64,000 nt of DNA from Diacronema lutheri. Its lineage: Eukaryota > Haptophyta > Pavlovophyceae > Pavlovales > Pavlovaceae. The DNA lies in assembly GCA_019448385.1 (NCBI GenBank), contig JAGTXO010000080.1, positions 29,271 to 93,270 on the forward strand, read 5' to 3'. This document shows, piece after piece, positions 33,412 to 58,099 of the stretch. Numbering within the stretch: position 1 is the stretch's first letter; each line of letters opens with the position of its first letter. The translations under genes and the position numbers were made by a program. The notes under the pieces are model-generated. The model saw only the letters and a list, made by a program, of their open reading frames with translations. It was not told where the DNA came from and did no database searches.

Positions 33412-33906
33412 CCTGCTGATCCAAAGGAGGCGGGAGAAATGCCGATATACCCATATTCCATAATTATTCCTTCTCGCCCCAATCGTGTCGACACCGAACC
33501 CGTATAGATGGTCAAGCCAAATCCGAGCAGGGGCACGATCGCGCCCCGAGTGCAGCGCGGGCCGTTCGGAAGGACGTCCTTGTGAGGGAGCTCTTCGCGT
33601 TTGGCGAGCGGGGGAGCACGACGCGCAGCGTTGCTGCGGCGGCGTGCGGGCGGCGAGCAGCGGTCGGGCTGCTCGCGACGAGGCCGGAGCAGACGGCGCC
33701 GTGGCCGCCGGCGCAGGTGACGCGCGCCGACGAGCCGTAGCGAGCGTCCGTGATCCGCACGGCGGTTGGAGCGGGCCGGCTGGTGCGGCGCGCTCGGCCA
33801 CGGGTGGCGGCGTGCACGGTCGTGCCGCGCGCGGCACGCGTCGCCAGCCGCGCGCGACCTGGGCAGAGCCCGCAAAGCGTCGACCGCTGCGCGGCTCGGC
33901 CGTGCG
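33412..33906. other. 495-bp spacer at the left edge of the putative element
   Basis: No convincing gene. It holds the promoter side of the 4-TM gene, with an AT-rich island at 33,437-33,478 (atatacccatattccataattatt), and the sequence immediately 3' of the Fanzor stop codon. Fanzor/TnpB guide RNAs typically come from the region overlapping and following the nuclease 3' end, so a guide RNA and the left element terminus would be expected here. I could not identify either by eye. Confidence 0.4.
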
Positions 33907-36600
33907 TCAACGCCGGCCGCGCTTCGGCCCGCGCGCGCTGCCGCCGCCGGCACTGGCGCTGGCAGCTCCGCGGGCGGGGGTGCGGGCGCGAGAGCCGCCG
34001 CCGCCACCGCCGCCGCGCCCGCCGCCGTCGTCGCCACCGCCGTCGCCGCCGCCGCCTCCCCCGCCGTCATCGTCGTCGTCGCCGCCGCCGCCTCCGTCGC
34101 CGTCGCCGTCGCCGTCGCCCTCGCCGCCGCCGCCGTCGCCGCTGCCATCGTCGTCGTCGTCGTCGTCGCCCTCGTCGTCGCCCTCGTCGTCGCCGTCGCA
34201 CTCGTCGTCGCAGTCGTCGCCCTCGCCGTGCACCATGCGCTCCTCACGCTCCCACACCTCGCCGCGCGCCCACCAGGCGAGCACGAGGGCAAAGCGCTCA
34301 GGCGTCGACGTGGTGTCGCGCCCGGCCGCGTGCGCCGCCATGTCGTGCACGTCGTAGAAGATGTTGCGCGCGGCGTTGTAGTCGCGGTGCACGGGCTTCT
34401 TGCCGCCGTTGCACGCCGGGCAGATGACGAGCGCGTGCACCGTGCGCGTGCCGCCCTTTGCCACGGGCAGGCGCGGGTTCTGCGCGAGCTCCGCGCCGCA
34501 GCGCTGCAGCCTGCCGCCCTTGGCGAGCCGCGGCATCGAGCAGTGCATCGACGTGTACGGCTCGGGCACGAAGACGGCCGCGACGCCGCGCCGCCGCAGC
34601 TCGCGCAGCAGCCCCACCTGGAAGGCGGGCGGCGCGCCCTTGGGCTGCGCGCCCTTGTGGTCGCGCAGCCACTTGCCCACGCACACGAGCAGCCGGTCGC
34701 GCGTCACGCCGTCGACACAGTGCGCCGCGATGAGCGCCTCGGCGACGCGCGCCGCGTTGGACCGCCCGCCGCTGTCGCGCCGCCAGCGCTCCTTCCGGCG
34801 CGCCGGCGCGTCGTACACGTGCTCGGCGGCGCGCTCGCGCACCCGCGCGCTCTCGCGGTGGAAGGCGTGGAACTCGCCCTCGCCGAGCACCTTGGCGCTG
34901 TGCGCCTCGCCAAGCCGCGCCTCGTCCGCCTCCACGCTGAACTCCTCGCCGCGCCCGTCCTTGCGCACGCGCCGCCGCGCCGCGTTGGTCTTGGCCGTCT
35001 CGCGCGCAAAGCCCGCGGCGCGCGCGCGCGCGCGCTGCGTGAACTGCCGCCAGACGGCCGCCCGCCCGACGTGCGCAGAGTAGGTGGTGATGTTGCCCAT
35101 GTTCGGGTCGGCCGCGACGACGACCGCCGCCTCGACGTCGATCGCCCGCCGCAGCTCGGAGCCGAGCGCGACGGCGATGCGCCCGTCCGGCCGGCGCCAG
35201 CGGTGCAGGACGCCCGAGCCGCCGGCCGGCGCCTGCGCCTTCGGCACGAGGACGGTCCCGACGGCGTGCACGGCGACGCCATCTGTCACCACCGACTTGA
35301 CGGGCTGCCGGCCCGGGAGCGGCACGCGCGGCAGCGGCGCGAGGCCAACCCACGAGCGCCGCGCGTGCCACGGCAGATCGGCCGGCGGCCGCTCGCGCCC
35401 GGCGTAGTCGAAGACGCGGTTGGAGATGTCGAAGCGCGTCGCAAAGACCGCGTACCTGACGCGCACGTCCGACATCGGCGGGGTGTTGCCGTTTGTGCCT
35501 GTCCACTTGATCGGCTCGCCATCGTGGTCGCGCAGGTCCAGCGCCTTGAGCCGCGCGCGCAGCTCCTTGCGCTCGTCATCCGAAAGCGTCACCCAGATGG
35601 CGCTCGCGGCGAGGCGCACGTTGCGCGGCACCTGCGCGCAGCGCGCGGCGCGCGAGCGCGCGGGCGCGTGACCAACCTGGCCGCGGGGCGGCGCGCACGG
35701 CGGCGGCGCGCGCGCTTGGGCGCTCGGCGGCGGCAGCGGCAGCCACGCCTCGCGCGCACATTGTGCGTGCGCAGCGGCGCCACATTGTACCGCGGCGGCC
35801 GTCCGGTCAGCTGCGTGTGGATGTGCGCGAGCCGGCAGAGCAGCGCCTGCCCCTCGGCCACGTGCTGCAGGGTGCGGATCTGCACGAGGAAGTAGCGCGT
35901 CGTGTGCCGGTCGTAGTTCCACCTTTTCGTGGGCGTGCACTTGTAGTCGATCTTGTGGAGGACCATGTCGGGCAGGTGGCGGTCGAGCGCGGCGGGGCAG
36001 CCGACGCGCGCGCCCTCCACGTCGCCGCGCAGCAGCCGCTCGCACAGCTCGCGCACGCGCGCGTTTCGCTGCATCTCGGGCAGCGCGACGAGCGCCTCGT
36101 CGCGCTCGACTGCCGCGCGGACGACGTCGCGGAGCAGCCCGTTCACGACGCGCGATGGATGCATCAGGCACGCGGTGGACACCTGCGTCGCCTCCGCCTC
36201 GAGGATCTCCGTGAGGCCCACCGCGCAGACGGGCTGGACGCCCTCGGCCATCTCGCCGACGGCGCGCGCCGTCGCCGCCTTGGTCTGCGCGGCGGCTTGC
36301 TCGGCGGGCTTGCCTCGGGGCGCTGCACCGTACGTGCTCTCGTCCTTGTGCCAGCCGATGGCCGAGAAGATCGCACGGACGGTTCCCTTGTCCATCGTGG
36401 TCGACGTGTGCACGCTGGTCGACGGGCCGCCCGACGCCGCGCCGACGGCCTGCGCGCTCGCCACCGCAGCCTCGTCGCGCACCACCTTGTTGATGACGCG
36501 GTACGCCTGTGTCGTGAGCCTGTGCACGGCCGCCGCGATGCGCCGCAGCTCCTTCCGCGCACCGGGCTGCGCCGTCACCGCCTGCGGCCCCGCGTTGAGC
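33907..36600 (-). other. domain: Fanzor (eukaryotic TnpB-like) RNA-guided nuclease
   Basis: About 850 residues over the last two exons. The N-terminal helical part (GARKELRRIAAAVHRLTTQA) and the stretch after MVLHKIDYKCTPTKRWNYD resemble Fanzor REC/WED regions. RuvC-I is AAVVVAADPNMGNITTYSAH (Asp at about 35,108). The central motif is RLLVCVGKWLRDHKG, followed by VFVPEPYTSMHCSMPR, which carries the E-x-x-TS-x-x-C signature of the family. The zinc ribbon's second half is VICPACNGGKKP, and RuvC-III is VHRDYNAARNIFY (Asp at about 34,382). The tail is acidic and Gly-rich, ending GPKRGRR, a likely NLS. Fanzors are RNA-guided DNA endonucleases; the guide was not located. Confidence 0.88.
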
Positions 36601-39600
36601 GTCGAGCGCTTGACCACGAAGCCCGGGAGCACGCTGACGCGCGTGCGCGCCGTCGCGCCGCCGGCGGCGCGCGCGCTCGGCGCAGCGGGCTCGTCCACGC
36701 GCGCGCGCTCGACGCCGCGCGCGCGGGGAACGCTCGGCGCGCGCGCGCCCGCGGCGTCGCGCGCGCTCGCGGCGGCACCCGCCGCGGCGCGCTTGCCCGC
36801 GGCGCCCGACTCGCCGTGCGCGCGAAGCGGCGCCGACGCCAATGCCGACGCCGCGCCCGCGCCGCCGCTGCCGCTGCCCGATACGCCCGCGCGCCGCTTC
36901 TGCTCGTCGCGCGTCTTGCGGAACTGGGCGACGAGGTCGCTGCTCACGTTGGCCTCAGGCTCCCACGTGTCGGCGCTCTCGTCGTAGCCCCGCCACCTGA
37001 TCCGGAACTGGAACGTCACCTTCTTGCCCGCCTTGCGGCGCTCGTCGACGACCGCCTCGACCTCGTACGTGCGCGCCTCCTCGTCGACGCTCGCGCCCGC
37101 CGCGCTCGCGCCCGTGTCCGGCCACCCAGCGACCGTGCCGCCCAGCCTCTCGGCGGCCGCGCGCAGCTGCCGCTCGCGCTGGGCGGCCGCGGCGCCTCGC
37201 GCGACCAGCGCGGGCAGCATGCCCGCGCCGCCCGCGAGGCCGTGCGCGCCGACGCTGGCGGTCATCAGCGCGTCGAGGCACGCGAACGTTGCGAGCGCAC
37301 GCGCGCCATCGTCGCCGCCGCGCGGCTGCGAGCGCACGACGGGCGATGGCCGCGGCTCCCCCTCGGCCGCGAGCAGCGGCCAGATCGCACTGGCCAGCGC
37401 GACGGCATGCGCGCCGACCGCGACGGCCACGTCCGCGTCGAGCGGCGCAAAGTCGTAGCGCACGAGCGCGGCCGGGCGCGAGTCGTCCGTCGGCCGGTCG
37501 GCGACGAGCAGCCCGACCGGGCGCGGCGGCTCGCCGGACGGCGCGGCGACGGGCACGCAGAGGAGCACGACGAGCAGGCGCGGCGTGCCGCCGAGCAGCG
37601 CGCGCGCGGCATCCGCCCCGTCGGCTCCGCCGCGCGCGGCCGCGGCGAGCAGCTCGGCCGCGCGCGTCGGGCCCAGCGCCGTGCGCGCGTCCTTGCGCGC
37701 GCGTGCGCGGGCCGTGTACGCGGCGCAGGCGTCGTCGAGCACCGCCGCGCTGGGCGCGGTGCCAGTCGTCGCCCACGCGCGCAGCGCGTCGCGCACCCGC
37801 GTGACGATCGCCTGGTCGACCGCCGCCTCGCCGGCAGCGTGCGCCGGCGCGCACGCCGGCGGTGCGGCGGCAGGCGCGAGCGCGGGCGCGCCGTCGGCGC
37901 CGTCAACGCCGACGGCGCCGTCGGCGCGCCGCCACGCGAGCTTCGCCTCGATCTGCTGCCGGACGGCGTGGCAGTGCCGGTCGATGCCGCGCGCGTCGTC
38001 GAGCGCGGCCAGCGCGTCCTCAGCGGCGGGACGGCCGCTCGCGTCCGCGACGGCCTGCAGGCAGAGCAGCGCGGCCGCACGCGCGTTGCACGCGCTCTGC
38101 GGCTCGGGCGCGAGCGCGAGCTCGAGCTCGAGCGGCGACGCGCCTCGCGCCGCGGCGATCGCGTCCATCAGCACGTCCAACCGCTGCACCAGCGCCCTGT
38201 GCGCGTCGCGCGGCGCGCCCGTCGACGGCGCGCGCGAGCGCGTCGCCAGGAGCCCGAGCGCGCGCGCCGGCGCGCCCGCCGGCGTGTGCAGCACGAGCAG
38301 CGCCGCGCCCGCCAAGCTCGCGTTGCGCGTGACGAGCGCGAAGATGCGCGTCGCCTCGTGCGCGCCCACCGACGCCCAGATCGCAGCGCGATCGGCGTCC
38401 GTCTGCGCGTCGCACAGGTCGCGCACGTCGTCCGGCGCGAGCAGCGCGCCGCCGCCGGCGGAGCGCGCGACGATCGCCCGCGCCTCCGCCACGAAGACGG
38501 CCTGCGGCAGGTCGGCGTGGCGCGCGTCGACGATGGCGCGCGTCGCGTGCACGCCGAGCTCCACGCCGCGGTAGAAGGCGCGCGCGTTGGCCGCGCGCGC
38601 GTGCGCCGGCCGTCCGTCCGCGTTGCGCCTCGCGCGCGCCTGCTTGCTCGTGCGCGCGAGGCCGTCGCGTGGCGGTGGCGGCAGCGTGGCGAGGAAGCGC
38701 GCGGCGGGCGGCGGCGCGCGCACGCCGCGCTGCCGCCGTGCGATGGCCGCGAGCCGCCGGCCCGCCGCGCTGCCGCCCGCGCCGACGTGCTGCCGGCGGC
38801 CGAGCGCCGCCGGTGGCGGCGGCGGCGGCGGCGCGGCGGCGGGCGGCGGCGCGACGGCGGGCGGCGGCGCGGCGGCGGGCGGCGGCGCGGCGGTGGGCGG
38901 CGGCGCGGCGGCGGGCGGCGGCGCGGCGGCGGGCGGCAGCGGCGGCGGCGCGGCGGCGACGGCAGCACCAGTCGGCTTGTCCGCCCACGCACCCGAGACT
39001 CTGTCCCAGACCTTGCCCCATGGCGCGCGCCCACGCGGCCGCGCGAACTGCCCCGGCTCGAGCGCCTGGCCGCGCTTGGCGGCGGCGGCGGCGGCAGGGG
39101 GCGGGCGGCCGGCGCGCCAGTCGAAGACAGGTGCAACCGTGGCGGCAGGCGCCGAGTGCCGCGCGTCGGTCACAGAGCGCGTGGTGCGCGCGGCGACCGT
39201 GGCACGCCTGGCGGGCGGGCGGTGAGCAGCGCCCGCCGGCGCGCCGGCGGGCGCGGCCGCCTCGAGCCCGGCGGAGGCGCCGCGCTTGCGCTTGCGCGTG
39301 CCGCCGCGCGTGCGCCTGCGCGCGCGCCCGCCGCGCGCCCGTTCGGCCTGCGCGTCGCCAGCCGCGTCGCCGGCCGCGTCGCCGCGCCGCACGTAGACGA
39401 CCGCGAACGCCTCCTCGCCGGTCCCGTCGACGCCGCCGCGCGCGCGGCGCAGGACCGACCGCCACTGCAGCCGCCGCGCGCGGCCGGGCTCGCACGCAAA
39501 CCAGCGCCCACCGCGCCTGACGACGGCCACAAAGTCGTCGTCGCGCCGCCCGCGCCGGCGCGTGCGCAGCAGCACGCACTGCACGTCGAGCCAGCCCTCG

Positions 39601-42600
39601 TGCCAGTCGGCCGTGCTGGGGGCGACGCGAATCGACTGCGGGAGCTCGACGCCAAAGCCGGCGAGGCGCACGATGTGCGCGACGATGACGCTCGAAATGG
39701 CGGGGGCGCTCGACGGGTCGCCCGCTGCAGCGAGCACCGCCCCGCCCCAGTGCTCACGCGTGACGCAATCCGCGTCCTCGACGTGCACGTGCGCCACGCT
39801 CGCGCCGAGCTGGTGCAGCAACGCGCAGATGTCGGCGTCGACCGTCCTCTCCTCCTCGGCCGCCTCGGCCGTGCCGCGGGCGGCGGCGTCGCCTGTCGGC
39901 TGCCCGAGGTACGCGATCGCCCGCTCGACGGCCGCGCGCTCCGCACGCGCTGCGCTGTCGATCGCCGCATTGCCGACGGGCGCGCGCAGCGCCGCGACCG
40001 CGTCTTGCAACGCCGTCGCGTCGCCCGTCGCCGCCGCCGCCGTCACCGCCGCCGCGCTCGCGGTGCCGTGCGCGACGGCGTGCAGCGCGGCGGCGCGCGC
40101 GGCGGGGATGCGCCCGTCCAGCGCGAGCACGAGCGGCGGCCCGGCCGGCGTCTGCTGCCGCCGGTGCCGCCGGCTCGCAGCCGGGTGGTCGGCGCGCGCG
40201 CGCTCGAGCCGCGCGCGCCGCTCGACGACGCGCGCCCAGAAGGCCTGCACCCTCGGCTGCGCGAATGCAAGCCAGCCGGCGCCGCGCGTCACGACGTGCA
40301 CGACGATCCGGTCCTCGTGCCTGAGGTACTGCACGTAGAGCGCTTTGCTCACGCCGAGGACGTGCATGCCGAGCTGCAGCTGATCGCGGTGCGGCTGCGG
40401 CGGCCCGTCCTCGTGCGCCGTGGCGCCCGCCTTGGTGAGCGTCTTCACCTCGACGAGGACCTGCTCGTTGTTTTCGGGGAGGATGGCGAGCCCGTCCGGC
40501 GAGAAGGCGAACGGCGCGCTCTTGTCGTGCGGGTCCGCACGCACCATCGGCAGGTTGCACACGACGGTGATGCCGTACGCGGCCGCCAGCTTGCGCAGCG
40601 CGACGGCCTCGCCGAGGATGCCCGCGGTCGTCGCCTTGGTCCGCACCTCGCGCCGCCGCCGGTGCACGTACTCGTCGGTGAGCGTCTCGTGCGCGACGCC
40701 GGCGTTGTCGTTCACGACGTCGCCAACCTTGCTGCCCGTGACCTCCTCCCATCGCTCGTCGTGCCAGCGCGGGCTGCGCTGCGCGGGCGCGCCCGCGCCG
40801 ACGGCGTCGAGCACGCGGCGCAGCGCTGTGCCGTCGGGCGCAGCAGGCACGCGCGCGCGGTCCTGGGCCTCGCGAGCGTCGAGGACGCGGCCCGTAGTGG
40901 AATCTTGGGGTAGGTCGAGCTTGCTCGCCTCGCCGTAGCGGCTCTCCAGCTGGCGCGGTGCGTCGGCAGGGCCGCCGTCCGTGCGCGCACCCGACGCGCC
41001 CGCCAGTGCACGCGGCGCAGCGTCCGAGGCGCCCGCCGCGCCCGCACCGCCGCCAATCGCGCCAGCGCACGCGCGCGCCGCGACCTGCGGACGGCCAGCC
41101 GCAGGGACCTCGTCCGCTCGGCCGGCCGCTGCGTCGGCCGTCCGCTTGGCCACCTCGCGCACGTCTCCGAGCGCGAGCGTGGCTGGCGCCGTCCAGCTCC
41201 CGTTGCGTTTGTCCCAACATTTGAGCAGCCCGCCAAGGAAGGGCGTGCCCGTCGGGCGGTCCTCGGGCACCTCCGCCAGGATCGCGTCGACGCGCAGCGC
41301 GGCCGCCACATCGCAGAACGCGCGCGCGGCGCGCGCCATCCGCTCGGCGCGCGCGCCGCCGTCGTCCGCCGCGCGGCGGATGGCGTGGCTCACGTGCGCG
41401 ACGCGGAGCGAGACGACGGCGTGCGCCGGCGCGTCGGCGCCCGTGCCGAGCGTGTGCCGCCGGATGGCCAGCTGCCCATCGCCCATGCGCGGCGGCAGCG
41501 ACGCGCACGCCGCGACGGTCGTCGTGCCGGCCGCGCTGTCGCACAGCCAGCTCGCCTCGCCGCCGCCCGCAAACTCAAAGGTCGCGAAGCCCTCGCGGCC
41601 GAAAAGCGCGACGAAGTGGTCGAGCACCGCCTTGTTGATCGCGCGCGCCGCCGGCCGCGTCGATGCGCCGCGGGCAGCGCCACCCGCCGCGCCGCGCGCA
41701 TCGCTGCACGTCGCAGGGCAGGTGCAGCCGGACGCGCGCACGCCGTCCGACCGCGTCCGCGGCAGCTCGAGCTCGCGCACCTTGGGGCAGAACCAGAGCG
41801 GGTTGGACGCCTCGAGGCACAGCACGACGAGCCGCCCGTCCGTGCCGGCCAGCGCGCGCGCGTCGCGCAGCAGCTCGACGGCGAGCTCGGACGTCGCCGC
41901 GTGCACCGCCGGCTCGCCCGTCGCGCGGTCGGGCGGGAAGAGGCCACCGCCGACGAGCGGGCTGGGGCAGCGGCCGAGCATCACGAGCAGCGGCGGCGGC
42001 GGCGTCTGCGGCGCCTGCTGCCCGACCGCAGCCGCCGTCAGCCCGGCCAGGTCGGAGCTCGTGCGGAGGGCCTTGAGCGCGACGCGCGAGCCGGTGCCCG
42101 CCTGCTCGGAAAACGTGGCGAGCATGGCGCACGTGCTCGCCCTCGCGCCGCACTGCCAGCTGACGCGCGAGGAGGCCTTCCAGCGTGTCGTTTTCGCGCG
42201 GCCGCGTGACCGCGTCGAGCGCCGCCGGGCCGAGCTGGAGGCTGCCGGGCGTGACGCACAGCACCGCCTCGTGGTAGGCGCGCAGCAGCTCCCTCGGCAG
42301 CTGCTCGGCGGGCGTCGCCGCCTGCCCGCCCACCCACCGTGCACCGTGGCCGCCGTCGCCCGCGCCCGCGAGCCGGACCGCCGGCCCGCCCGTGATCGCC
42401 GAGGTCGGTGGCGTGCCGAGCGCGTCGACGAGCGCGCGCACGGGCGCGACACGCCTGCGCGCAGCGTCCGCGCCGACGGCGAGCGCGGCGATCTGAGCGC
42501 CCTCCCATGCGCGCTCCCTCGCGTCGTCCCGCGCGGCCGCCGGCGCGGCGCCCGGCCGCGCGCCGGGCGGCACCGCGCACGCCGCCGCGACGACCTCCGC

Positions 42601-44478
42601 GCGCGCGCCGGCGGCGTCGGGCGCGTGCAGCTGCGCGAGCGCGCCAAAGAGCGCGGCGGCCGAGCGGTAGCGGCCGTGCGCCGCGACGAGCGCGTAGAGC
42701 ACGCGCAGCGCGGCCACGCCCGCCTGGTCGGGCGCGTCGCCAGCGATTTGCTCGACCTCCCACGTGCGCGTGGGCGGCGGGCTGCCGTCGGCCGGGTCCG
42801 GACGCAGCGCCCACGCGCGCTCGACGATCGCGTTGAACACGCCGCGCGCGGCGCCCTCGTCAAACTCGGCGGCGCCCGCCGCGTGCGCGCACCACCCGTG
42901 CACGCGCGACGTGGGCGCGTCCACGGCGCGCTGCACGACGAGCACCGCCGGCCGGTCGACGCAGCCGAGGCTCACCGCCGCGTGCTTGCCCTCGAGCAGC
43001 GCCGCCGCCGCAGCCTCGACCAAGGCGTCATCAGGCGCGTCGCCGACGACGACGGCACAGCCGTCGCCGTACTCGGCCTGCATCGCGGCGACGCACGACG
43101 CGACAAAGTCGCCGCCCGCGGCCGCCGCGTGTCGCGCCGCCAGCATCCGGCGCGCGATGGCAAGCCAGACGTACTCGGCCGGCGCGCGCGCGGCGCGCGC
43201 GCGAGGCGCGCCGGCCGCGCCGCGTGCGCCCGCGCGTGCGCCTCCAGCGGCCGCAACGGCCGAGGCGGCTGGAGCGGCGGTGAGCGTGCGCCGCGCGCGC
43301 TTCGCCGGCCGCGTGATGGGCGATGCACCCGCCATCGCACCGCCCGCAGCAGCCGGTGCGGCCGCCACAGCGCCCGCCGCAACGCCACTCGTCACGACGC
43401 CCGTGGCGGGCGGCGCGGCGGCGGACGTGGCCGCCTCGACGGGCGTCGCGCAACTACCGCCAGCGGTCGCGGACGCGCCCGGCGACGCGTCGGCGAGGAG
43501 GTGGCGCAGCACGCCGCGCGCGAGCGCGACTGGCACGGCGAGCGTCAGCGCGCGCAGGCGGTCGGAAGGCGAGGCGTCGCGCTCGGCGTCGGCGGACGTG
43601 GCGGCAGCAGGCGGGGCGGCGGGCGGCACGGCGGCGGGCTGGGCGGCCGCCGGCGCAACCTCGTCGGCCTTGGCCAGCCAGACGAGCCCGGCGACTGCGA
43701 GCACGACGCTGTACGCGCCGACATCGTCACCCGCAACGCGCGCCAGCCGGGCGTGGGCGTCGGCCTCGGACACGGCGACGTGGAAGAGCACGTCGTCGCG
43801 GGCAGCTTGCTCGGCAAACTGACGCAGCTGCTTGGCCATCGTCACGCCGGCGACGCACGCCTCGCCCGCCTCTGCCTCGACCTGCTCGTCCTGGCCGATG
43901 GCGGACGCGCCGGCCTCGGCGCCAGCGTCGAGTGTCCGGCGGCGCTCGAGGGCGAAGCCACGCACACAGACGCGCTGGAGGCCGCCGAGCGCGCCCGCCT
44001 TCTCGTGCAGCGCGCACGACAGCTCGACCACCGAGTCCACGCGCCTCGCGGCGGCGCCCCCCCGCTCGCCGCGCGTGGCCGCGCGCACGACGAACACCGT
44101 GAATTGCGCGCGCTTCGCCGCGCGCGCCGACGCGCACGCGTGCTTCAGGAGCCGGCAAAGCGCGGGCCTTTGCGCCGCTGCGCCCCGCGTGCACAGCAGC
44201 AGTTGGCCGCGCTCGTCGCCCAGCTCCTGCTCGACGGCGGCCTCGAGCGCGTCGTCCGTCAAATCGCCGTGCTCCGTCGAGGCGAGCGCGCGCGCAGCCG
44301 CGAGCGCCAGCTCGCCTGCGCCCGCGCGCCGCCGGCGGCGCGCACCGGCGGGCGCGTGCGGCGCCGACGCGTGTGACGACGCCGCCGCGTCCGCGCGCGC
44401 ACACGCGGCGCGCAACGCCTCACGCGCCGAGGCGGCCGCGCGCGCCCTGGGCGCGAGCTTCAAGAACGTGCGCGCGGC

Positions 44479-44545
<67 letters not shown>

Positions 44546-47500
44546 TCGCCCGCGTCGCCGGCCGGCGGCGGCGGTGGCGGCGGTGGCGGCGCGGCCACGG
44601 CGGCGGCAGCAGCGGCGGCGGCGGCGGTGGCGGCGGCGGCGGCGCCCAGCGCGGGCGGCGGCGGCGTGGCGGCGGCGGTGGCGGCGGCGGTGACGCCAGC
44701 GGCGGCCTTGGCGCCGCGCGTCTGCGGCGGCGTTTCGGCGCGATCGGGGCTGCCCCCGCCACGCACCGCGCTCGTGACCGCGCAGACGCCGCCCGGCGCA
44801 CGATCGCTGGCCGCGCCGGTCAGCGCGACGCGGAGGCGCTCGCCGACAGCGTACATGTCCGCCACGCTGAACGTGCGCGGCGCGGACGAGCAGCCCGCCG
44901 CGGCGAGCGCGTCGTTGAGCGCGCCCACTATCGCGAGGCCGCACGTCGCGCCACGCTGCGCCGCCTCGTTGAGCAGCAGCGCGCGGCGCACGCGCGAAAT
45001 GTCGAGACCCGCCGCGTGCAGCGTGGCAGTTATCGCCTTGGCGAGCATGAGCGCCTGCCTGCAGGGCGACGCGAGCGTGTCGACGAGCACCGCGTCGTAG
45101 CGATGCTCGCCCGCGCGCGCGACGCGCACAAGGCGCAACGCGGTGAAATGGCCGGAGGCGAGCTGCGCGCCGTCGTCACCGCCCGCGCCGCCGCGCTCGT
45201 CCGACGGGCTCCACACGCCGATGACAGCCTGCGTTGTCGCCTCGCTGCGCAGGCGGTGCAGCAGCGCGGCGCGCTCGGCGTCGTCCTGAAACACCGCGGG
45301 TTGCGCGGCGAGCGGCACGTGGCAGACATGCCCGCCGCCGGCCTGCCCGTGCACGCGCAGCACGACCTCGCAGCACGCGTCGACGGTTGAGGCGAGCATG
45401 TCGCCGCTGGCGATGCGCTCCACCTCTGCCTGCGGGAGGCCGGCGCTCGCGGCGGCGGCGGCCAGCCGGCGCGCAGCCGCGTCGCCCGCCCACGCAAGCA
45501 GCGCCGAGTTGGCGGGTTGGAGGGGAAGCTCAAGGGCGGCTGGTTCGGTGGCGGTAGCCTCGTTGGCAACGGGCACGTTGGCGGTGCGCGCGTTGGCGGC
45601 GGGCGCGGCGGCGATGGCTGGTGGGGCGGAAGACGCGCCCGCGGCGGCGGGCGCGGACGCGGCAGCGGCAGCGGCTAGTGGGGCGGGGAAAACGCCGTCG
45701 GTGGCAGGCGCGGAGGCGAATGCAGGAGCAACTAGTGGGGCGGGAAAATCGGCGGCAGGCGCGAAGGCGGATGCAGCAGCGGCTAGTGCGGCGGGGAAAA
45801 CACCGTCGGCGGCAGGCGCGAAGGCGGATGCAGGAGCGCCCAGCGGGGCGCAGAAAACACCGTCGGCGGCAGGCGCGAAGGCGACAGCAGCAGCGGCCAG
45901 TGGAGCGGAGGCGCAGGGCCACGCGCGCGCCAGCCGTGCAAGCCCAAGCCGCGCGCGAGCGACGCACGCGCCGATGGCCGAGGCGGCGGCGCAGGCCACG
46001 ACGTGGCCTGGCACCGGTGTGGCCAGCCGCTCGCGGGTGTGCACGTCGAGCCGCGCCCCACGCCAAGAGCGGCGGCGCGCTGAACGGAGGCGCGCGACCC
46101 CGATCGATCCGCCCGCGCACGCGCGCGCCGGCTCAGTGTGGCCAACGCGCGCCGCTATGCAAGGCGCGCGCGCGATAACGGCGGCTGTCGGCCGTGGCGT
46201 GCGCGTGGCGGCGCCGCGGCGACGGGCGCGGCACACGAGCCGCTCGGGCGCGCCGCCGCCGCGCGGCACGATGTCGAGCAGCACGGTCACGCCGCGCGCG
46301 CGCGCGACCGCCGTGCACGCGAGCCGCACGGGCAGCGGCGGCCCGTCCGGGCGCGCGAGCGCCGCCACCTCGGCGTCGGTGAGGCTGTGCAGCTCGCGGC
46401 GCGCGCGCGCGAACGCGGCGATGTCCGCGCGCAGCTCCGCGTCCGTGCCGAGCGCGGCACGCGCGTGCACGGGGAGCGACGCGCGCAGCGCGTGGAGCAC
46501 GCCGCCGCGCGCGCCGCGCGGCGCCGGCGCGCGCTCGCGCTCAGCGCGCGCGGCGCGCGTGAGCTCGCGCACCGCGCGCGCGAGATTGCGCCGCGCGGCC
46601 GCGACGGGAGGGCTAGGTGCGCGCGCGCGCCGGTTGTAGCGCGGCCGCGCCGAGTCGAGGGGCGGCGGACGCGGTGCGTACGCCGCGGCGCGGCCCGCGC
46701 GCCAAAAGGCCGGCGGCGGGCGCAGCTCCGTCGCGTCGACCGCGGCCGCGAGCGCGCCGAGCGCGGCGTCGCTGTCGCCCGCCGCGTCGGCCGCGTCGAC
46801 GAGCACGAAGAGCGCGCCGAGCGCGCGCGACGCGGCCGCCTGCGCGGCGGTGGGGCGGGCGCAGGCAGCGACGCATGCGGCCGCCATGCCGCGCGCCGCG
46901 GCGAACGCCGGTGACGTGACGGCCGCGCCGATGGCAACGGCGGCGGCGGCGACGGTGGAGGCGGCAGCGCCGGCGATGGAGGTGGCAGCGGCGGCGGCGC
47001 TTGCCATCGCGCGGCGCGCGAGACGCGAGGCGCCACCGACCGCCGCCGCCGCAGCGCGCGCTGCGCGCGCGCCGGTGGCGCGCATCGTCGCCGCGCCAGG
47101 CGCCGCCGCGCCGACGCCGCCGGCGCCCGCGCCGTCGCCGCTCTCGGCCGTGCAGGGCTCCGATGGCGAACCCGGCGTGCGCTGGCGCGTGATGCGCGCG
47201 CCGAGGCGCGCGCTCCGCGCCGCGCGGCCGGCGACGTCGAGGAAGCGCCGTGCGCGCGCCGCGCGCAGGCCACGCGCGCGCGGCGGCGCACCGACAGGCG
47301 CCGAGCGCCGCGGCGCGCACGCCGGCGCGTCGCTGTCGGGTTGCGCAGCGCGCGCGCGGGAACTCGGCGCGGCGTGTGCGGGCGGCGGGCGCGCGCCCGC
47401 GCGGCGCAGAGGCGCGAGGCGCCGGCCGCAGACGAGGCGTGTGCGCAACCAGGACGGCGAGGGCCGCAGGGCGCCGTCGACGTCGCGCATCGGCGGGCCG

Positions 47501-50500
47501 CGAGCCCGCCGCGCAGCCGTGCGGCGCGCGCGAGGCGCTCGGCGGCGCGCGCGCCGCACGGCGCGCGCGGCGGCGCGCACGCCAGCGACGGCTGCGGCCA
47601 CGCCGCGCGCCAACACGGCCGCGGCGTGCGCCATCGCACCGAGCACGGCGCGTGGCGCGCCGAGCAAGCGCAGCAAGCGCGACGCCGTCGCGCGCGCCGG
47701 CGCACCGTGTGCAGGGGCCTCGCCAGCGCCAGCACCGACGCCGCCATCGCCGCAGCCGCAGGTGGCGTCGCCGCCGCCGCAGGCGTCGCGACGGACGCCG
47801 CCGCCGCCGAAACAACCGCCGCACACGTCGCCGCCGACGTTGCCATCCCAGCCGCCGTTGCGTGCGCAGGTGGCTGCGGCGCGTGCGTGCGGGAGGCGTG
47901 CCGTGCGGCGCGCATCACACGGGCTGCGCGACGCGAGCGACGCCGCCGGGGTCCCCGCTGCGCCAGGCGCGCCGTGCGCGCCAGCCTCGCCGGCCTCGCC
48001 GGCGCGCGGTCGCGCGCTCGCCTCGACGTGGCCGCCTCCGCCGCCATCGCCGCCGTCGAACCGGGCGGCGGAGGGCTGCCGCTCGAACCGCTCGTCGGCG
48101 TCGGCCGCCACCGCCGCCTCGCGCTCCGCCGCCGCGGCGGCCGCACGGCGCGCGTGGCGGAGCGCGCGGCCGCCGTCCGCTGCGCGGCGTGGCGGCGCGG
48201 GCGCGGGCTTCGGCGCGCGCGGCCCCTCGGCGCGCTCGCGGAGCACGGCGAGCGGCGTGCCCGTGGCGACGCTCGTGCAGACGCGCCGCAAGGCGGCGCT
48301 TACGCACGCGTGGACGACGCGCGCCGTCCGCTTGTCGGCGGCGCGCGCGGCGCGGCGCGCGGCCTTGGCGGCGGCCTTTTTGGCGCGCCTCTGCTCCGCC
48401 TGCTCCGACAGCGCGCGCGCCTGGCGCTCGGCTGCGAGCGCGTCCTCGGGCGAAACGGTCGGCCTCGGCGGCCGCGCGCGCGCGCTGCGACGCTGCGCGC
48501 TGCGGCGGTCGGACGGCGGCTGCCGCGGCGGCGAGGACGGCGAGCGCGAGCTCGGCGTGGGCGACCAATCGCCGCTGACGGTTGCGAGCGGCGCAAACGG
48601 GTTGTCGTCCCCGCGACCCGCGGCGTGCGACAGTGCACGCGGCGTCGGGCGCCGGCCGACCGCTGGCGGGCCCCACTCGGACGGCGGCTCCGAGGGCGAG
48701 CGCGCCGTCGGCGCCGCGCGTTGCGCGGCCGGCGGCGCCTCCCGGTCCAGCGCCGCCTGCTCTCTCGCCGCGGCCTGCTCGTCACCCTCCGGCACGCCAC
48801 GCGGCGCGAGCACCGCGGTGGCGCAGCGCGTCGCGTTGAGCAACGCCGCCTCCATCTGCCGCACGCTGGCCTTGGCGCACGCCACACCCTCTCTCGCCCG
48901 GCGCAGCGCCTCGTGCGCGCGGCGCACATCCGCGTCGGCATCTTCGCGCATGCCAAAGTGCGCCTGTTGCAGCCGCAGGTCCGCAGGGCGCCCCTGCGCG
49001 CGAGGGGCACGGGCGCGGCGGCGCGCAGGTGACGGAGCTGGCGCGCCGTTCTGCGCTGCGCGCACGCCAATCGACGGGCGCGCGCGCGGCGGGGCGCGCG
49101 CGCGCGCGCGCGCGCGCGCTGCCTACCCAGCCGCCGGCCGGCTCGCGCGAGCGCGCCAGCTGCTCCGCCGCCTCGGCGTCGAGCACGCGCTGCTGCGCCT
49201 CCTCCTCGCCCAGTGCAGCGAGGTGCAGCCGGCGGGCTGCCTTGCGGCAGTTGCCCTCCGCCTTGCCCACGGCCTTGCGCGCCGCGTCGACGGGGTCGTC
49301 GTTGGCTCTGGCGCGCCTGCGCTTGCCCTTGTCGGCGGGCGGCGGCTTGGCGCGCTGCAGCGTGCCGAGCGCGTCGTCGGCTCCGCGCGCGGCCGCCCGC
49401 GGGCGGCGGGCCCCAAAAAGCGCACCGGTCGCCGTGCGCGCCGCGCAAGCAACGACCAGCGCTGACATGCCGGCGAAGACCGCACCGCCCAGCGCCACGG
49501 TTGCCACGATGCGCAGCGTCCCGTGCGCAAGCTGCGCTGCCTCCGCCGCTTTGGCGGCCTCGCGCGCGCGCGCATCGGCGGCTCTCATCTCGTGCAGCAG
49601 CCCGGCCGCGCCGCTCGCGCCGTCGCGGCCGCGCGCGAGCTCGCACAGCACCGCCGCCGCGCGCCGCGTGGGCTCGCGCGCGAGCAGCTGCGCGCCGCCG
49701 TCGGGGCGCAGCTTCTCAACGAACTCGACAAACGTCGCGTCGCGCCAGAGGGACATGCGGAAGGCCCTGTGCACCGCCCCCTCCTGCTCGCGCATCCGCC
49801 GTGCCGCCCGCCTGCCGTCGCGCGCGTGCGCGTGCGCGGCCGCGTCGAATCCCGCGACGCCGCGCTGCGCGTCGCGCGCGGCCGACGACGGCGCCGCCGC
49901 GCTGCCCGCCAAGGGCGCCGCAGCGGCGACGCGCGCGTGCGGAGCGACGGGATCGCCGGCGGCCGGCGGCTCGGCGCGCTGCGGCGTGCCGTTTGCTCCG
50001 CGCGCGGCCGTCCCGGGGGAGATGGCCGCGATGGCGCCGCCAGCCGCGCCGCGCGCCAGCCACGCGCATAGGCTGCCGACGAGCTCGCCGAGACCCCCGA
50101 CGGTCGCCGCGGCGGCGAGTGCGCCGGGCTTGCCGGCCGACAGCGGCTCGCGAGCGTCGTCGTCGCAGCCGCCGGCACCCGTCTTGGCGAGTGCGTCGCG
50201 CTCGCCCTCGACGCCCGCCACGACCGCCGCCCCTCCGTCGTCCGCCGCGCCGGCCGCGCGCGCGGCCGGGCGCAGAGGAGGCGTGCCGGTGCAGCCGTCG
50301 CCGCTCGTCTTCGCCGTTTCCTCCACTTTGGTCACTTCGTCGCCACCTGCGCCATCTCCGACGCCGGGGCCCTTGGTCACGCTTGCCGCCATGCGCGCCG
50401 TGCCCGCCGGCCAGCCCGCCGACTGCTCGAGCGCGGCGGCGAGCGGCGCGACGCGCGTCGACTCGGGCGCGCTCTCGTCATCGGGCTCGAGCGCGTTGTG

Positions 50501-52801
50501 CAGGCGCGCGAGCGCGCGCTCGACGGCCGCGGCGCCACTGCCGGGGGCGCGGCTCGCCGCGCGCACCGCGCGCCGCCAGGCCGGCGCGAACATGAGCGCC
50601 GGCTCGAGCGCCGCGAGCGCGCGCGCCTCGCGCGCGTCGCTCGCGCCGAGGCGCGGCGGCACGCGCGCGGCTCCGCGCGGCGCGGTGCCTCGGAAGCGTG
50701 GGCTCAGCGTGTAGGCGAGGTGCTGCGGCACGCCGCGCGCCTCCGCGCGCGCGCGTCCGTCCTCGACCTCGCGCCGCGCCTTCGCGATCGCCGGCGTGGC
50801 GCGCGCGAGCCAGTCGGGGTCGGCGGGCAGGTGGATCACGACGAGAATCGGCGCCCAGTCCAGCCGCGGGTTCTTGTGACGGTCGGGCACGACCCACACG
50901 AGCAGCACCGTGCCCTCCGCGCCGCACGCCGCCTCGTAGATCCTGGGCTGCGAGCGCCAATCGGGCCTGACGCGCAGCGCCCGCGCGTGGTCGATGGCGG
51001 CGGCGCGGTCGCCATTGAAGTGAACCGTCGTCACCTCGCCGATGACGGACCGGCCGGACCGCCAGCAGAACACCGCGTCCGCCGACCCGCCGGCGATGGC
51101 CGCGAGCGATTCGGGCGCGGCGAGCCGCGGCAAGCCCTCGAAGGCGGCAAAGTCCTCGTGCGCATTGTACACGCCGCCCCAGCCGTCGTGCGCGTACGCG
51201 CGCGCGGCCGCTCGTACCGCGCGCGGCTGGTTCTCCACGCCCGACGTCATGTGCCATGTCGTCCCCGCGAAGCCGGGCTCGCCCAGCTCGGCCCGCACGA
51301 CGGTACCGTACCCCGCGCCCTGCGTCGGGGCGGCGAGGTGGTGCATGCCCGCGCCGGTCACGCCCTCCGTGCGCTGCCGCGTGACGATCGTGCCCGTCGC
51401 GTGCGCGAAAAGCGTGTCGACCACGGCGGGCGCGCGCCCGCTGTTCGCCCGTAGCCGCGCCCTGCCCGCTTTTAGCTGCTCGGGGTCCTTGGCGTCGTAC
51501 ACGCGCGCGTCCGCGTCGCCCTCATCAGGCGCAGTGTAGACGCAGCGGCGTTCGAGCGGCGCCGAGCCACCGCCGTCCGCCGCCGCCGGCGAGGTTGGCG
51601 CCGCGCCCGCCGCCACCGCGCTCGTCGCCGCCGTGCCCGTCGCCACCGCCGCAGCCGCCGCGCCCGCGGGGTCGTCGTCCCCGTCCTCCGCGCCCTCCCC
51701 GTCGTCAGCGGTGGTGGCGTCGCCATCGTCCCCGTCGCCCTCGCCCCCGCCGAGGCTGCTGAATGGTCGGGGCCCCCACGCCGAGGCGGCGCGCCGCTGC
51801 GGCGCACGCGGCGGTGGCGCTCGCGACGGCGGCCTTGGCGCCGCCGCGCCGCGCGGCCTGGCCGCCGTCGACAGCGCGCGGCCTGCAGCGCCCGTGAGCG
51901 CGTCGAGCGCGGCCGTGCGTGCGATGCGGTCGTCGGGCGCGCGCAGCGCCGCCTCGACGGCCTGCAGCAGCCCGTCGGGCGCGGATCCGCCGACACTGGC
52001 ATCGCACGCCTCGGCGAGCCGCGCGGCCTCGGCGAGCCGCGCGGCCTCGCGGGTGAACGGGCCGAAGCGCCTGGCGCGGTCGCCGAGCAGAGCGCCGATG
52101 GCGGCGCGGAGCGTGCGCGCGCGGGTCTCCTCGTACGCGGCCGTCGTGAGGCGCGCGAGGCGCGCGTCCAAAGCCTTCTTGATGTCGACAAGGACACTCG
52201 CGCGGCGGCCGTAGAGCGTCGATGCGCTCGCCACGACCTCGGCCGCGACTGTTGCCGCGGCGAAGCAACACGCGGCCCCACTCTGCGGGGGCGCCTTGAA
52301 GGCATCGATGGGCGGCGCTGTTCTGCCGATGCGCTGCGCAAGCTTCTTGATGAGCACGCCGGCCGCCGTGGCGTACGCCGATTCGCCGTTGCCCAAGGTG
52401 CGCGAATCGGCGAGCAGGGCGAGCGCGGCGCCGGGCGGCGCGCCGCGCTGCGCGGGCGGCGCGAGGAGCAGGTACGCCGCCGTCCAGTGCACGAGGCCGC
52501 TGGACGCGCGGAGGCAGAGCGGTAGCACGACCACGAGCACCTGCCCAAACCGGTCCGCATCCGCGCATGCTTTGCGCAGGTTGCGCAGCGCCACCTTGAG
52601 CGCATGCTGCGAGCACCCCGTGTCGCCCACCCTAACCCTGCTCGTGCCGAAATCCGCGTAACGCAGCAGGGCGATGAGGCAAGTGGATGGGACCACGTGG
52701 GGGTGGGTATCTCCCGGCGACAGAATGGTGCTGAGGGCCAGCGAGAAACTGTCCGAGCCGCCCCGCCCGCCGGGCAAGGCGTCCTTCACGGAGTCCTCCA
52801 T
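33907..52801 (-). CDS. giant polyprotein: Ulp1-like protease - protease-like modules - YqaJ exonuclease - chromodomain - Fanzor
   Basis: Exons 52801-49127, 48993-42154, 42101-35760 and 35631-33907 join in frame, all in phase 0, to about 6,193 codons. Introns are 133, 52 and 128 nt with GT-AG borders. Order: C48-like protease (residues 1-185), an unknown globular region (about 500-720), a TM helix (LRIVATVALGGAVFAGMSAL, near 1110), coiled coil, a long Arg/Ala-rich region, a second cysteine-protease-like module (near 2400-2620), an inactive third one (near 3160-3340), an unknown domain (3520-3880), YqaJ exonuclease (about 3930-4140), more degenerate modules, chromodomain (near 5175-5240) and Fanzor (5340-6193). 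The frame stays open through all of it. The 52-nt intron is the weakest join: unspliced, a second protein could start at Met 42,125. Function inferred: a self-processing transposon polyprotein. Confidence 0.7.
34020..34245 (-). repeat. Gly/Asp-coding trinucleotide array
   Basis: Dense GTC/GCC/GTCGTC triplets, encoding a long Asp-Gly-Glu tail of the Fanzor module just before the terminal basic NLS. Confidence 0.85.
36895..37084 (-). other. domain: chromodomain
   Basis: A clear chromodomain: TYEVEAVVDERR, then FQFRIRWRGYDESADTWEPE, then a C-terminal helix (DLVAQFRKTRDEQKRR). The aromatic cage positions Tyr, Trp and Trp/Tyr are present. Such domains bind methylated histone tails and occur in chromovirus integrases. 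It lies about 100 residues before the Fanzor module. Confidence 0.85.
38820..38945 (-). repeat. Pro/Ala tandem repeat linker
   Basis: A GGCGGCGCGGCGGCGGGC-type array, encoding AAPPPAAAPPPTAAPPPAAA on the minus strand, in the linker between the YqaJ exonuclease and the chromodomain. Confidence 0.9.
40190..40820 (-). other. domain: YqaJ-type (PD-(D/E)XK) exonuclease
   Basis: All hallmarks of the YqaJ viral-recombinase family are in order: RSPRWHDERWEEVTGSKVGD (binding helix), ILGEAVALRKLAAAYG (GxxxE), FAFSPDGLAIL (SPDG), EQVLVEVKTLTK (catalytic ExK) and HRDQLQLGMHVLGVSKALYV (QxQxQ-like helix). The catalytic Asp, Glu and Lys are intact. Known relatives are lambda-exonuclease-like 5'-3' exonucleases, which resect ends for strand annealing. 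Confidence 0.85.
42650..43180 (-). other. domain: third protease-like module, catalytic Cys lost
   Basis: Similar architecture to the other modules, but the position of the catalytic Cys reads DAPDQAGVAALRVLYALV, where DCGVFAL-like sequence is expected. It is probably a structural pseudo-protease. Confidence 0.35.
44475..44700 (-). repeat. (GGC)n-type low-complexity array in the polyprotein gene
   Basis: A dense GCG/GGC trinucleotide region, encoding poly-Ala on the minus strand with Pro-rich patches, between protease-like module 2 and the following globular segment. Confidence 0.85.
44815..45530 (-). other. domain: second papain-fold protease-like module
   Basis: Within exon 2 of the polyprotein. 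His is in LASGHFTALRLVRV, Asp in YDAVLVDTLASP and Gln/Cys in NEAAQRGATCGLAIVGALND, giving the H-D-Q-C order of C48-like peptidases with intact catalytic residues. Confidence 0.5.
45625..45895 (-). repeat. about 66-72-bp coding repeat, four imperfect copies
   Basis: On the minus strand it encodes repeated ASAFAPAADGVFPAPLAAA-like units, with variation in unit length, upstream of the second protease-like module. Confidence 0.75.
52246..52801 (-). other. domain: N-terminal C48/Ulp1-like cysteine protease
   Basis: Residues 1-185 of the polyprotein. The expected triad plus oxyanion Gln are in order and spacing: H105 in SGLVHWTAAYLLLA, D132 in ALLADSRTLG, Q173 and C178 in PPQSGAACCFAAAT. The HW and DS pairs and the Q-x4-C arrangement are those of Ulp1/adenain-like enzymes (the usual spacing is Q-x5-C). 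A role in cutting the polyprotein or removing SUMO-like modifiers is inferred. Confidence 0.65.
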
Positions 52802-54149
52802 CTGCAGACTGTGGGCACGTCAGTGTCCGGATGGCGGCCCGGATGATACTTGGGAGAATTTACATGATGCCCTGGAGAATGCCCCGCTCTCCCACAACCA
52901 GGACCCGCCAGCGCGCCGAGCCTACTCGTTTGCCCGCGCCGCCTCTCTTTGCGCGCCCGAGCGCGGCCTCCGAGCGCGGCCAACGTCCTCCGGGGGCGTG
53001 CATCGTGGCTGCTCGGAGGGGCTGCGACGCGGCGAAAGCTCGCTGCGCGGCCGCAACGTGAGCGCGCGCGCGCGGCCGCGCGCCGGCCTGCGCTGCTCTG
53101 CACGGCCGCGCGCCGGCCTGCGCAGCCTCGTCGCGCAGCGTGAGCGCGAGCGCGCGCGAGGTGAGCTCGGCGGATGGGTGCGCGGCGGCGTTGGCGGCGG
53201 GTGCGGCGGCAGGCTGGGCGGCGGGTTTGGACGGAGAGTGTCGGGGAAGAACGGGGCGCATCCTGGCTGGGAGTTGGACGGCGCCCACCACGCGCTGGCG
53301 GATCCTGGTTGCCACCACCACCCCCCCCCCCCCCCCGGAGACGAGGACCAGGGGCATGGCCGACTCGCTGCGCCGCACAGCGCGCGGCGCGCGGCATGCT
53401 GCGCGACCTCAAGCACATCCAGCCGCGCTCCGCCCACGCAACGCGCGCAATGCCGCGTTGCACTGCAGGTGTGCACGTGCGGCTCTCACGCGCACTGTGT
53501 TGCACGAACGGCATCACGCCACCGAGCTGCGTCCGGACCACGCGCCGCGCGCAGGCGACCACACAGGGGCGCGCCGCGCCGCGCGTGCGCGCCCTCGCAA
53601 CCGTTGCAGCACGCTCTGCCTTGCACTGCGCCGAGCCGCCGCGCGCTGTGCGCGTGCATGCAGGGCGCACGCGTGCGACGAAGCGCGCGCGCGGCGAGGC
53701 GCGCGGGCGGCTCGCTGCGCGGGCGGCAACGCGCCCAGCTGCGCCCAGGCCAGGCGCGCGCCCGCGAGTGCCACCGGGACGCACTGCCCCCGCCGGGGTC
53801 GCCGCGCGCTCTGTGTGTGCGCTCGCGCGCTGCGAGCGCGGCGGAACGTTCGTGCATGGCGCGAAGAGCGCGGCACCCGAAGACGGCTGCCCCGAGCCCG
53901 CGCCGGGTGGCAGCGAGCGGCGGCACCTCCTCGGCGAGCCCGCCCCGCGCCTTCCCCTCCACGTGGCGTTTTGAGGCAGACGGACACGCGCCCACACTGC
54001 GACTGGGCACGCTGCTCGAGGCAGACACGCACCCAACGCGCGCGCACCACGCGCCCGCGTCGGCGGGCCGGTGTGAACGAGCGAGAGCTCGGTGTCGCCA
54101 ACGGGGGCACGGGCGCGACTTCGGTCCGCCTCTCGACGGACGCAGGCGA
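52802..54149. other. 1.3-kb spacer upstream of the polyprotein gene
   Basis: No gene supported. The sequence is Arg/Ala-rich in every frame. A poly-C run at 53,323-53,337 resembles the intronic plus-strand runs elsewhere, and a run of near-repeats (gcgcgccggcctgcg) lies near 53,080-53,120. The polyprotein promoter should lie in the first few hundred bases. Confidence 0.4.
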
Positions 54150-55520: not shown

Positions 55521-55722
55521 GCGCACGTGCACGTGCGCGCCACTGATCACATTTGAGCGTCCGTGCTCGCCCACAGCGTCGCCATCCACAAGATGCGCGC
55601 TGGAGCCATCCAAGCAGGGCTCTGCCTGCTCGGCTTCCGCAAGGCAATTTGGGCCGCGGACAGCGGACAGCGGACGGCGTGCGCGTGCGAGGTGCGAAAG
55701 GAGGAAGAAGGTAGGGAGAGTT

Positions 55723-55770
<48 letters not shown>

Positions 55771-57194: not shown

Positions 57195-58093
57195 GCGCGC
57201 GCTGTTGCGGGCTGCGCAGCAGGGACGACGGGGGAATTGGCGAGCGAGGGTTAGGCGCAGATCAGCGTGGTGGCGCGGCAAGACGAGCGCGCGCCGGGCG
57301 CCTGGCGCGGAGGCGCCCCGCGCGAGGACGCGAGCCGCTTCTCGCACCGGACGGGCGCCCACGCGCAAGCCGGCTTTCGAGGGCTGGTGGATGGTGGCAG
57401 ATGCCGAAACGGACACATGGAATGATGCGTCGGCGGCGCGAGCGCGGGACGATCTTGCCCGGGCAATTTTGCGCACGCTGCCAGCGCGCGTATGCGTGCG
57501 CATGCAGCGGGCGGCGCGCACGTTGCGCGTGACGGGGCGCCGAGCGGCACACCGGCGGGGACGCGCTCGCCGCTGCCGTGGCATCGTACGCTGCCTGCGT
57601 GCTGGCCCGCACGCACGTTGCCGGCGCGAGGGGACGGCGAGTGCGCCTCGGCCGAACAGGCGCGAACGTTACGCCCGAGCGCGTGGCCGGGCCCCGCCGA
57701 CTGCACGCAGCGCCGGCCCAGGCGCGCATCCGCCCGACGCGGATTTGGACGACGCATCGACCGGCACGCCGAGCGTCTGCGCCCGCCTCGCGGCCGGTCG
57801 CGCCGGCCCCTCTTCGGCCCGAGGCCGCACGTCCGCCGCGCGCCGCTTTGGCGCGCGGCGCGGCGCTCCCGGAACGCGCATGGCACACGCGCGGTGCGCG
57901 GGCACGCCCGCAACGCGCCATTCCAGCGCGAGCAGTTCGGCAAGCTTGCAGCGCGCGAGCAGCCGGGCATGTGCCGCGGAAACACAGTTCGCTGTGTGCG
58001 CCGGCCGCGACGACACGGCGTAGCGGCGCGAGGCTGGCCGCCGGGGCCACGGGCGTACTGCCGTGGCGCGACGCCATGGTATGAGCATTAAAT
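57195..58093. other. 900-bp spacer between USP and Pif1 units
   Basis: All frames are Arg/Ala-rich with no recognisable domain or codon-level order. A poly-G run follows at 58,100-58,131. I see no gene here. Confidence 0.4.
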
Positions 58094-58099
58094 TCATCG

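Follow-up and report, generated by a model that had tools for sequence, protein, structure and literature searches.

A Fanzor1 nuclease as the C-terminal domain of a giant multi-enzyme frame in a roughly 200-copy, 31-kb mobile element of Diacronema lutheri

The role of Fanzor nucleases in eukaryotes is an open question. Fanzors are described as stand-alone proteins in the consulted parts of the literature, and a Fanzor within a giant fusion does not appear in those parts of PMC3627910, PMC10711439, PMC10432273, PMC11423790 and PMC6338049. The Fanzor of D. lutheri resembles the described ones in its RuvC domain with a rearranged glutamate, its zinc ribbon and its RD motif. Its gene likewise lies at the 3' end of a mobile element, which has no terminal inverted repeats. 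Unlike them, it forms the C-terminal domain within a giant frame, and the element around it measures 31 kb. A search of freely accessible papers for a link between Fanzor and YqaJ returned nothing, and the element is described neither in the consulted part of the genome paper (PMC8379373) nor in the literature that was found.

Other known systems share individual parts with this element. Members of the lambda-exonuclease/YqaJ/RecE family (phrog_434, TIGR03033) match one of its domains in sequence across the catalytic domain, but the D. lutheri domain sits inside a giant frame that belongs to a mobile element of a eukaryote. Chromodomain retrotransposons are a known class, in which a chromodomain likewise stands beside a DNA-cutting domain in a mobile-element protein; in D. 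lutheri, the chromodomain is instead joined to an RNA-guided nuclease and not to an integrase. Chromodomains occur in the polyproteins of LTR elements, according to the consulted part of PMC6338049. No reverse transcriptase was found in the element frames that were scanned. Helitron RepHel proteins, represented by P0003 and P0005 (PF14214 plus PIF1), are close to the PIF1 helicase of the element, which is joined to a ubiquitin hydrolase; no Rep/HUH domain was found in the element.

What the DNA shows is a giant multi-enzyme frame that ends in a C-terminal Fanzor1 domain and belongs to a 31-kb element of roughly 200 copies. The explanation that we favour, with moderate confidence, goes further. 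Fanzor1 would be made as the C-terminal part of a giant multi-enzyme protein, and the element, which also carries a Helitron-type PIF1-UCH gene, would spread with the help of RNA-guided homing steps. The in-frame link of Fanzor to a RecE-type exonuclease and a chromodomain suggests a job in cutting, resecting and copying DNA, and this job is testable, as D. lutheri can be cultured and carries about 200 recent copies.

Copies, ends and target of the element

The scan covered the genome of D. lutheri NIVA-4/92 (43,492,796 bases in 103 contigs). The window, by which we mean the whole stretch of 64,000 nucleotides that was analysed, corresponds to positions 29,271-93,270 of contig C56, which ends at 93,270. 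The initial annotation had described the gene and missed that it sits in a mobile element of 31 kb and roughly 200 copies (Table 1).

The termini of the element read GTATAGATGGTCAAGCC on the left and GGACCGCGCC(G/C)TATATAG on the right. Exact matches to these ends occur 202 and 190 times in the genome, respectively, and the reversed patterns, used as controls, 0 times. The zinc-ribbon family of the Fanzor has at least 148 genome matches (150 of 306 candidates were scored), and among the matches listed, the majority have the same score as the window copy. On the left, 13 of the 14 loci L015-L028 (identity 97.4-99.9%) lose similarity at window positions 33,496-33,502, and the fourteenth, L023, begins within the element. 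On the right, where the comparison was made via C26, all five other copies diverge 294-301 bases past window position 63,700. The resulting boundary, at about 63,997, coincides with the end of the window's contig. For 65 of the 97 left ends that were typed, a typed right end lies at most 45 kb away, and the other 32 are without a partner. The paired copies fall into size classes, with 28 of them at 30.95-31.08 kb and 12 at 21.4-21.61 kb, and the others cluster mainly around 26.2 and 29.2 kb. The family is very large and recently spread, and on a rough estimate (about 200 ends times 21-31 kb) it may fill about a tenth of the 43-Mb genome.

Table 1. Features of the element and its genes, in window coordinates
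Feature	Position	Strand	Basis or remark
Complete mobile element	33502..63997	.	30.5 kb in the window copy; sharp homology ends
3' non-coding stretch, 405 bp	33502..33906	-	Fanzor stop to element end
Last exon, 574 codons	33907..35631	-	Fanzor WED and RuvC, acidic/Gly-rich tail to stop
RuvC-III Asp in HRDYNAARNI	34,363-34,389	-	last exon
CPAC	34,411-34,422	-	last exon
RuvC-II E-PYTSMH-C	34,540-34,566	-	last exon
RuvC-I motif DPN-M-G	35,092-35,118	-	Asp at 35,107-35,109
WED motif TDG	35,278-35,286	-	in SVVTDGVAV, 35,269-35,295
Intron 3, 128 nt, GT-AG	35632..35759	-	inside the Fanzor domain; numbered as in the initial annotation
Exon 2, 13.2 kb	35760..48993	-	~4,412 codons in other copies; exons 2 and 3 of the initial annotation
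Fanzor, N-terminal half	36,632-35,760	-	exon 2
Chromodomain	37,070-36,900	-	exon 2
RecE/YqaJ exonuclease	40,778-40,356	-	exon 2
Middle intron of the initial annotation	42102..42153	-	not an intron; coding in other copies (copy comparison)
Second Ulp1-like signature, H-D-Q-C	45,159-44,926	-	exon 2
Intron 1, 133 nt, GT-AG	48994..49126	-	GC-dinucleotide tract; flat codon periodicity
Exon 1, 1,225 codons	49127..52801	-	Met at 52,801; frame and periodicity
Possible PD-(D/E)XK stretch	51,553-50,732	-	exon 1; by eye only
First Ulp1-like signature, Q-SGAA-C	52,256-52,291	-	exon 1
First Ulp1-like signature, DS	52,397-52,417	-	exon 1
First Ulp1-like signature, HW	52,472-52,495	-	exon 1
Second gene, PIF1-type helicase and ubiquitin C-terminal hydrolase	55521..61101	-	KFE25_009705 (P0002), 1,267 aa
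Weak coding signal, small protein without family match	61888..63307	+	codon-position GC, profile scan

A terminal inverted repeat was not found, and the 300 bases at either end of the element have no 12-mer in common in inverted orientation. An asymmetric terminal inverted repeat is not clearly beyond chance, since 17 to 184 of 1,000 shuffles, depending on the length tried, gave an equal result. The left flanks carry GTATA at 23 of 24 ends, and the right flanks carry TATATA at 12 and TATATAG at 10 of 15 ends (the sixteenth row, L067, belongs to another family, B, and was excluded). The best reading of these flanks is that the element inserts at TATATA. The base that precedes TATATA varies between G and C on the right, whereas on the left it is nearly always G, which leaves no sign of a simple target duplication. 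The one flank pair that was tried gave no empty site.

The starts of C1, C5, C6, C12 and C32, the ends of C3, C8 and C14, and the end of the window all lie within a few bases of element ends. These contig edges are probably assembly breaks at the repeat. Telomere targeting, which was considered because contigs start at an element end, was set aside, as other copies sit inside contigs and repeat edges are places where contigs would tend to break. Three IMG/VR scans gave no relatives from outside the genome, and protein searches for such relatives returned only P0001, a near-identical protein of 570 aa from a metagenome contig.

Judged by its position between the Fanzor stop and the element end, the 3' non-coding stretch is likely to be the place of a guide-RNA scaffold. 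A 7-bp hairpin is predicted in it about 28 nt from the element end. The folding of this stretch is not clearly better than that of shuffled sequences (z from -0.5 to -1.6 in 6 pieces), and it has no match in Rfam.

The giant gene and its domains

The initial annotation had connected four long minus-strand frames through three phase-0 GT-AG introns. The frames are present (52,819-48,782; 49,122-41,575; 42,971-35,589; 36,954-33,907), and codon-position GC, which tracks the minus-strand phases 2, 1, 0 and 1 and changes phase at about 49.05, 42.2 and 35.65 kb, marks each of them as coding in its stretch. Two of the three introns could be retained, as codon periodicity is lost inside introns 1 and 3, where GC by codon phase is flat (89/80/86 and 88/91/81); in the 300 exon bases upstream it is 61/85/92 and 96/45/71. 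Their exact splice sites are putative, since 50 and 35 frame-fitting GT-AG pairs lie in the tested ranges. The 52-nt middle intron had to be given up and is better described as a 2-bp length difference. In all five other copies that were read at this place (C9, C10, C12, C71 and C17), a CG tract at about 42,167 is 2 bp longer than in the window copy, and the two window frames form one ORF of about 4,200-4,500 codons.

The long frame is common among the copies. Of the best 150 of 203 candidates, 149 were evaluated, and in 85 of these 149 rows the exonuclease lies in a frame without interruption that has at least 4,450 codons. This frame continues through the chromodomain into the N-terminal half of the Fanzor, and the other half comes after one short intron. 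At the ORF level, this gives good support to the earlier claim that the Fanzor is the C-terminal part of a giant protein. A frame of 2,440-2,470 codons, as in the window, is found in 6 of the 149 rows. Measured at the chromodomain, the frame has 4,518 codons in C71, 4,504 in C9 and 4,506 in C12. At C11:792,339, the frame that contains the exonuclease reaches 6,136 codons, and the copy there exceeds that of the window by about 1.2 kb between the equivalents of 40.8 and 48.6 kb.

Length variants also occur inside the introns. Among four copies that were read, intron 1 is 2 bp longer in C48 and C75 and not in C9 and C10, and the extra 2 bp create a single frame over exons 1 and 2 of 5,746 and 5,733 codons, respectively. 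Intron 3 is 130 nt long in C71, again 2 bp more, and shows no length change in the other aligned copies. Because these 2-bp variants are of the same kind as the variant in the exon, they say little for the introns. The weight lies on the flat periodicity and, for intron 3, on the Fanzor alignment, and these support the two introns. The gene is thus best read as three exons of 1,225, about 4,412 and 574 codons, about 6,200 codons in total, with exon 1 joined to the remainder by what would be intron 1 alone. The frames predict a single chain of about 6,200 residues, with two Ulp1-like stretches, a RecE/YqaJ exonuclease, a chromodomain and the Fanzor in this order.

The Fanzor matches PF07282 with an E-value of 4e-6 and 27.3 bits (cut-off 26.3). 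By the motif definitions in the consulted part of PMC10711439, it has the RuvC-I aspartate (in DPN instead of DPG), the rearranged RuvC-II glutamate six residues ahead of the zinc motif (E-x6-C, at 34,540-34,563, with TS-x2-C), the CPAC motif and the RuvC-III aspartate. The zinc ribbon has four cysteines, with a stretched first knuckle. The initial annotation had listed most of these motifs as a full Fanzor, to which the TDG motif of the WED domain can be added. Judged from sequence, the C-terminal nuclease domain of the element is a genuine Fanzor1. A sequence search of solved structures with the Fanzor pair returned Cas12f1 (E 1.2e-4), and the Guillardia Fanzor1 only at E 0.63.

D. lutheri has a second Fanzor family, B, in which the RuvC-I motif is DPG. 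The two Fanzors align end to end with 29% identity, and when intron 3 is removed, a gap of 5 residues remains at the junction. Intron 3 is supported by this alignment, because its removal makes the two Fanzor halves collinear with the family B protein.

Profile searches, which the initial annotation had proposed for Fanzor, YqaJ, C48 and chromodomain, recovered the Fanzor, the chromodomain (Chromo, E 3.4e-12) and, through phrog_434 (E 1.4e-15), the exonuclease, and gave no peptidase match. TIGR03033 matches the exonuclease below its cut-off (E 1.5e-5). With Pfam YqaJ, the window copy stays under the cut-off of 22 bits (E 0.015, 16 bits), and the copy in C71, taken from the genome search, is just above it (E 5.9e-5, 22.4 bits). 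The catalytic D and ExK are present as FSPDG and VEVK. Exon 1, with its possible PD-(D/E)XK stretch, has no peptidase or nuclease HMM match.

One protein or several

The copy at C17:199,849-221,414 represents the 21.5-kb size class (12 of the 65 pairs). Its right-hand part aligns, with gaps, at 87-98% identity, and its core, which spans 45,617 to the left end, at 97.4%. The segment that includes exon 1 (window 45.6-55.8 kb) gave no similarity in C17, where about 760 different codons precede the core and give it another N-terminus (one 21.5-kb copy was read). Family B (L001-L008 and L067) has an element of an estimated 7 kb, with a single frame of up to 1,779 codons, in which repeats of about 90 residues and a Gly-rich stretch stand before the Fanzor. 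No partner domain was recognised in the family B sequence that was read. Its terminus, GGGGCGCACAGGCGCCCTATATATG, is exact in 5 of 8 loci and present as close variants in 3, with variable flanks, and its 3' end has a GGGGCGC/GCGCCC hairpin and TATATATG. In the one copy that was read at this point, in C85, 48 of the 53 bases of the 5' terminus are those of family A, and the edge reads CTATAT. Families A and B therefore seem to share an end and a target.

The different N-terminus in C17 and the small family B element, with no recognised partner of its Fanzor, both speak for an alternative in which one coding block on the DNA gives rise to several proteins, through internal promoters or starts, for example a chromodomain-Fanzor protein of about 1,000 residues. 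We regard this as a real possibility, if an unlikely one. No stop, gap or loss of periodicity occurs between exonuclease, chromodomain and Fanzor, and the strongest reason against a separate gene is that the N-terminal half of the Fanzor follows directly after the chromodomain in the giant exon. None of the 7,980 candidates scored was an annotated protein of D. lutheri with this Fanzor and a length of 558-1,776 aa. The database has at least one annotated protein of the species, and the argument is weak given that coverage of the species is perhaps partial.

The initial annotation had instead proposed that the Fanzor is released from a polyprotein by an Ulp1-like cysteine protease in the same chain. 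Two H-D-Q-C signatures, one in exon 1 and one in exon 2, the second retained in C17, favour this proposal, as does the presence of a further cysteine hydrolase (UCH) in the neighbouring gene. The pattern, which was chosen after seeing the sequence, occurred in 0 and 14 of 1,000 shuffled proteins, respectively. For the protease itself, little beyond the signatures was found: across Pfam, NCBIfam and PDB sequences, the two stretches match no peptidase and reach only unrelated proteins below threshold, among them Cse2 (E 0.054) and an FtsK chain (E 0.16). Their AlphaFold models, with pLDDT of 44 and 41, are useless, and a Foldseek search with the poor model of the second stretch (pLDDT 41) returned nothing at E up to 0.001. 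The usual substrates of Ulp1 and UCH enzymes are SUMO or ubiquitin, which would suggest roles in countering the host or in stabilising the protein itself. Cleavage of a polyprotein by its own protease is unlikely in our view.

Differences between C17 and the window bear on whether the giant frame has been maintained. Length changes sum to multiples of three (3, 3, 5+1, 21, 24, 29+4 and 18), except for the 2 bp at 42.17 kb. Upstream of 42.17 kb, where the two copies have diverged most, the dN/dS ratio is 0.65 (96 N, 58 S). It reaches 1.23 (32 N, 10 S) in the half with exonuclease and chromodomain and 1.41 (12 N, 3 S) in the last exon, both with few changes. Among the aligned copies, 61 N and 17 S changes in 35.8-40.1 kb and 38 N and 21 S changes in the last exon look unconstrained. 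The pattern would fit a source gene under selection and copies that drift, and is no proof that the window copy works. That the element is a decaying repeat, with long frames as a by-product of 75-80% GC, is highly improbable and was rejected: chance frames are many in this GC range, and the window copy and others have frame breaks, but GC varies from 45% to 98% by codon position, length changes preserve the frame, and long uninterrupted frames persist in 85 of the 149 rows.

The helicase gene, Helitrons and a possible homing cycle

The second gene matches PIF1 in two frames (E 2.5e-24 and 2.4e-14) and UCH (E 4.3e-8), and the public model KFE25_009705 joins both parts in one protein. In the window (at about 59.85 kb), as in C17, motifs I and II of PIF1 do not share a frame, and KFE25_009705 splices motif II out. 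Outside relatives of the PIF1 part, besides P0002, are P0003 and P0005, with PF14214, and P0004, without it. P0003 and P0005 are Helitron RepHel proteins. A profile of their helicase part finds the element at E 1.1e-41, whereas a profile of their Rep part finds nothing in it (best real row E 38). In the genome, PF14214 is confined to C63 (C63:35,738-36,019, E 8e-23), and this Rep could act in trans. Helitrons lack a terminal inverted repeat, have a hairpin near the 3' end and end in 5'-TC...CTRR-3'. In the element, no terminal inverted repeat was found, the hairpin near the 3' end is a prediction, and the ends are not TC/CTRR. Membership among the Helitrons was rejected; the element has a PIF1-type helicase, and no Rep/HUH domain was found in it.

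According to the favoured explanation of a giant multi-enzyme protein and RNA-guided homing, the element would insert next to TATATA, and transcription of the 3' non-coding stretch, continuing into the flank, would then yield a guide RNA. This guide would direct the Fanzor to cut empty sites, the tethered RecE-type exonuclease would resect the cut ends, and the PIF1 helicase would support the long repair synthesis for copying the 31-kb element. Pif1 is needed in break-induced replication. The chromodomain may hold the protein at chosen chromatin. A first insertion at a new site would need a recombinase, and none was recognised in the element. For TnpB-like nucleases, it has been proposed that cutting aids copying after insertion (PMC10432273, in the part consulted).

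Several observations speak against this explanation: dN/dS exceeds 1 in the young stretches, the PIF1 motifs are split by frame, RuvC-I has DPN, and the first zinc knuckle is stretched. In addition, no guide-RNA structure stands out in the 3' stretch, the single flank pair gave no empty site, and the N-terminus differs in C17. A bolder version would place this giant element, in which no transposase can be recognised, in a new class of its own. Such an element would home by RNA guidance with nuclease, exonuclease and chromatin reader in one protein, would be copied over 31 kb by PIF1-driven break-induced synthesis, and would be accompanied by family B as a Fanzor-bearing satellite of about 7 kb with the same 5' terminus. 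We consider this version distinctly doubtful.

Upstream of the helicase gene, the window contains an inverted repeat of 89 nt with 98% complementarity (61,674-61,762 and 61,905-61,993), the arms of which are 142 nt apart. It lies between the helicase gene and the weak coding signal on the opposite strand.
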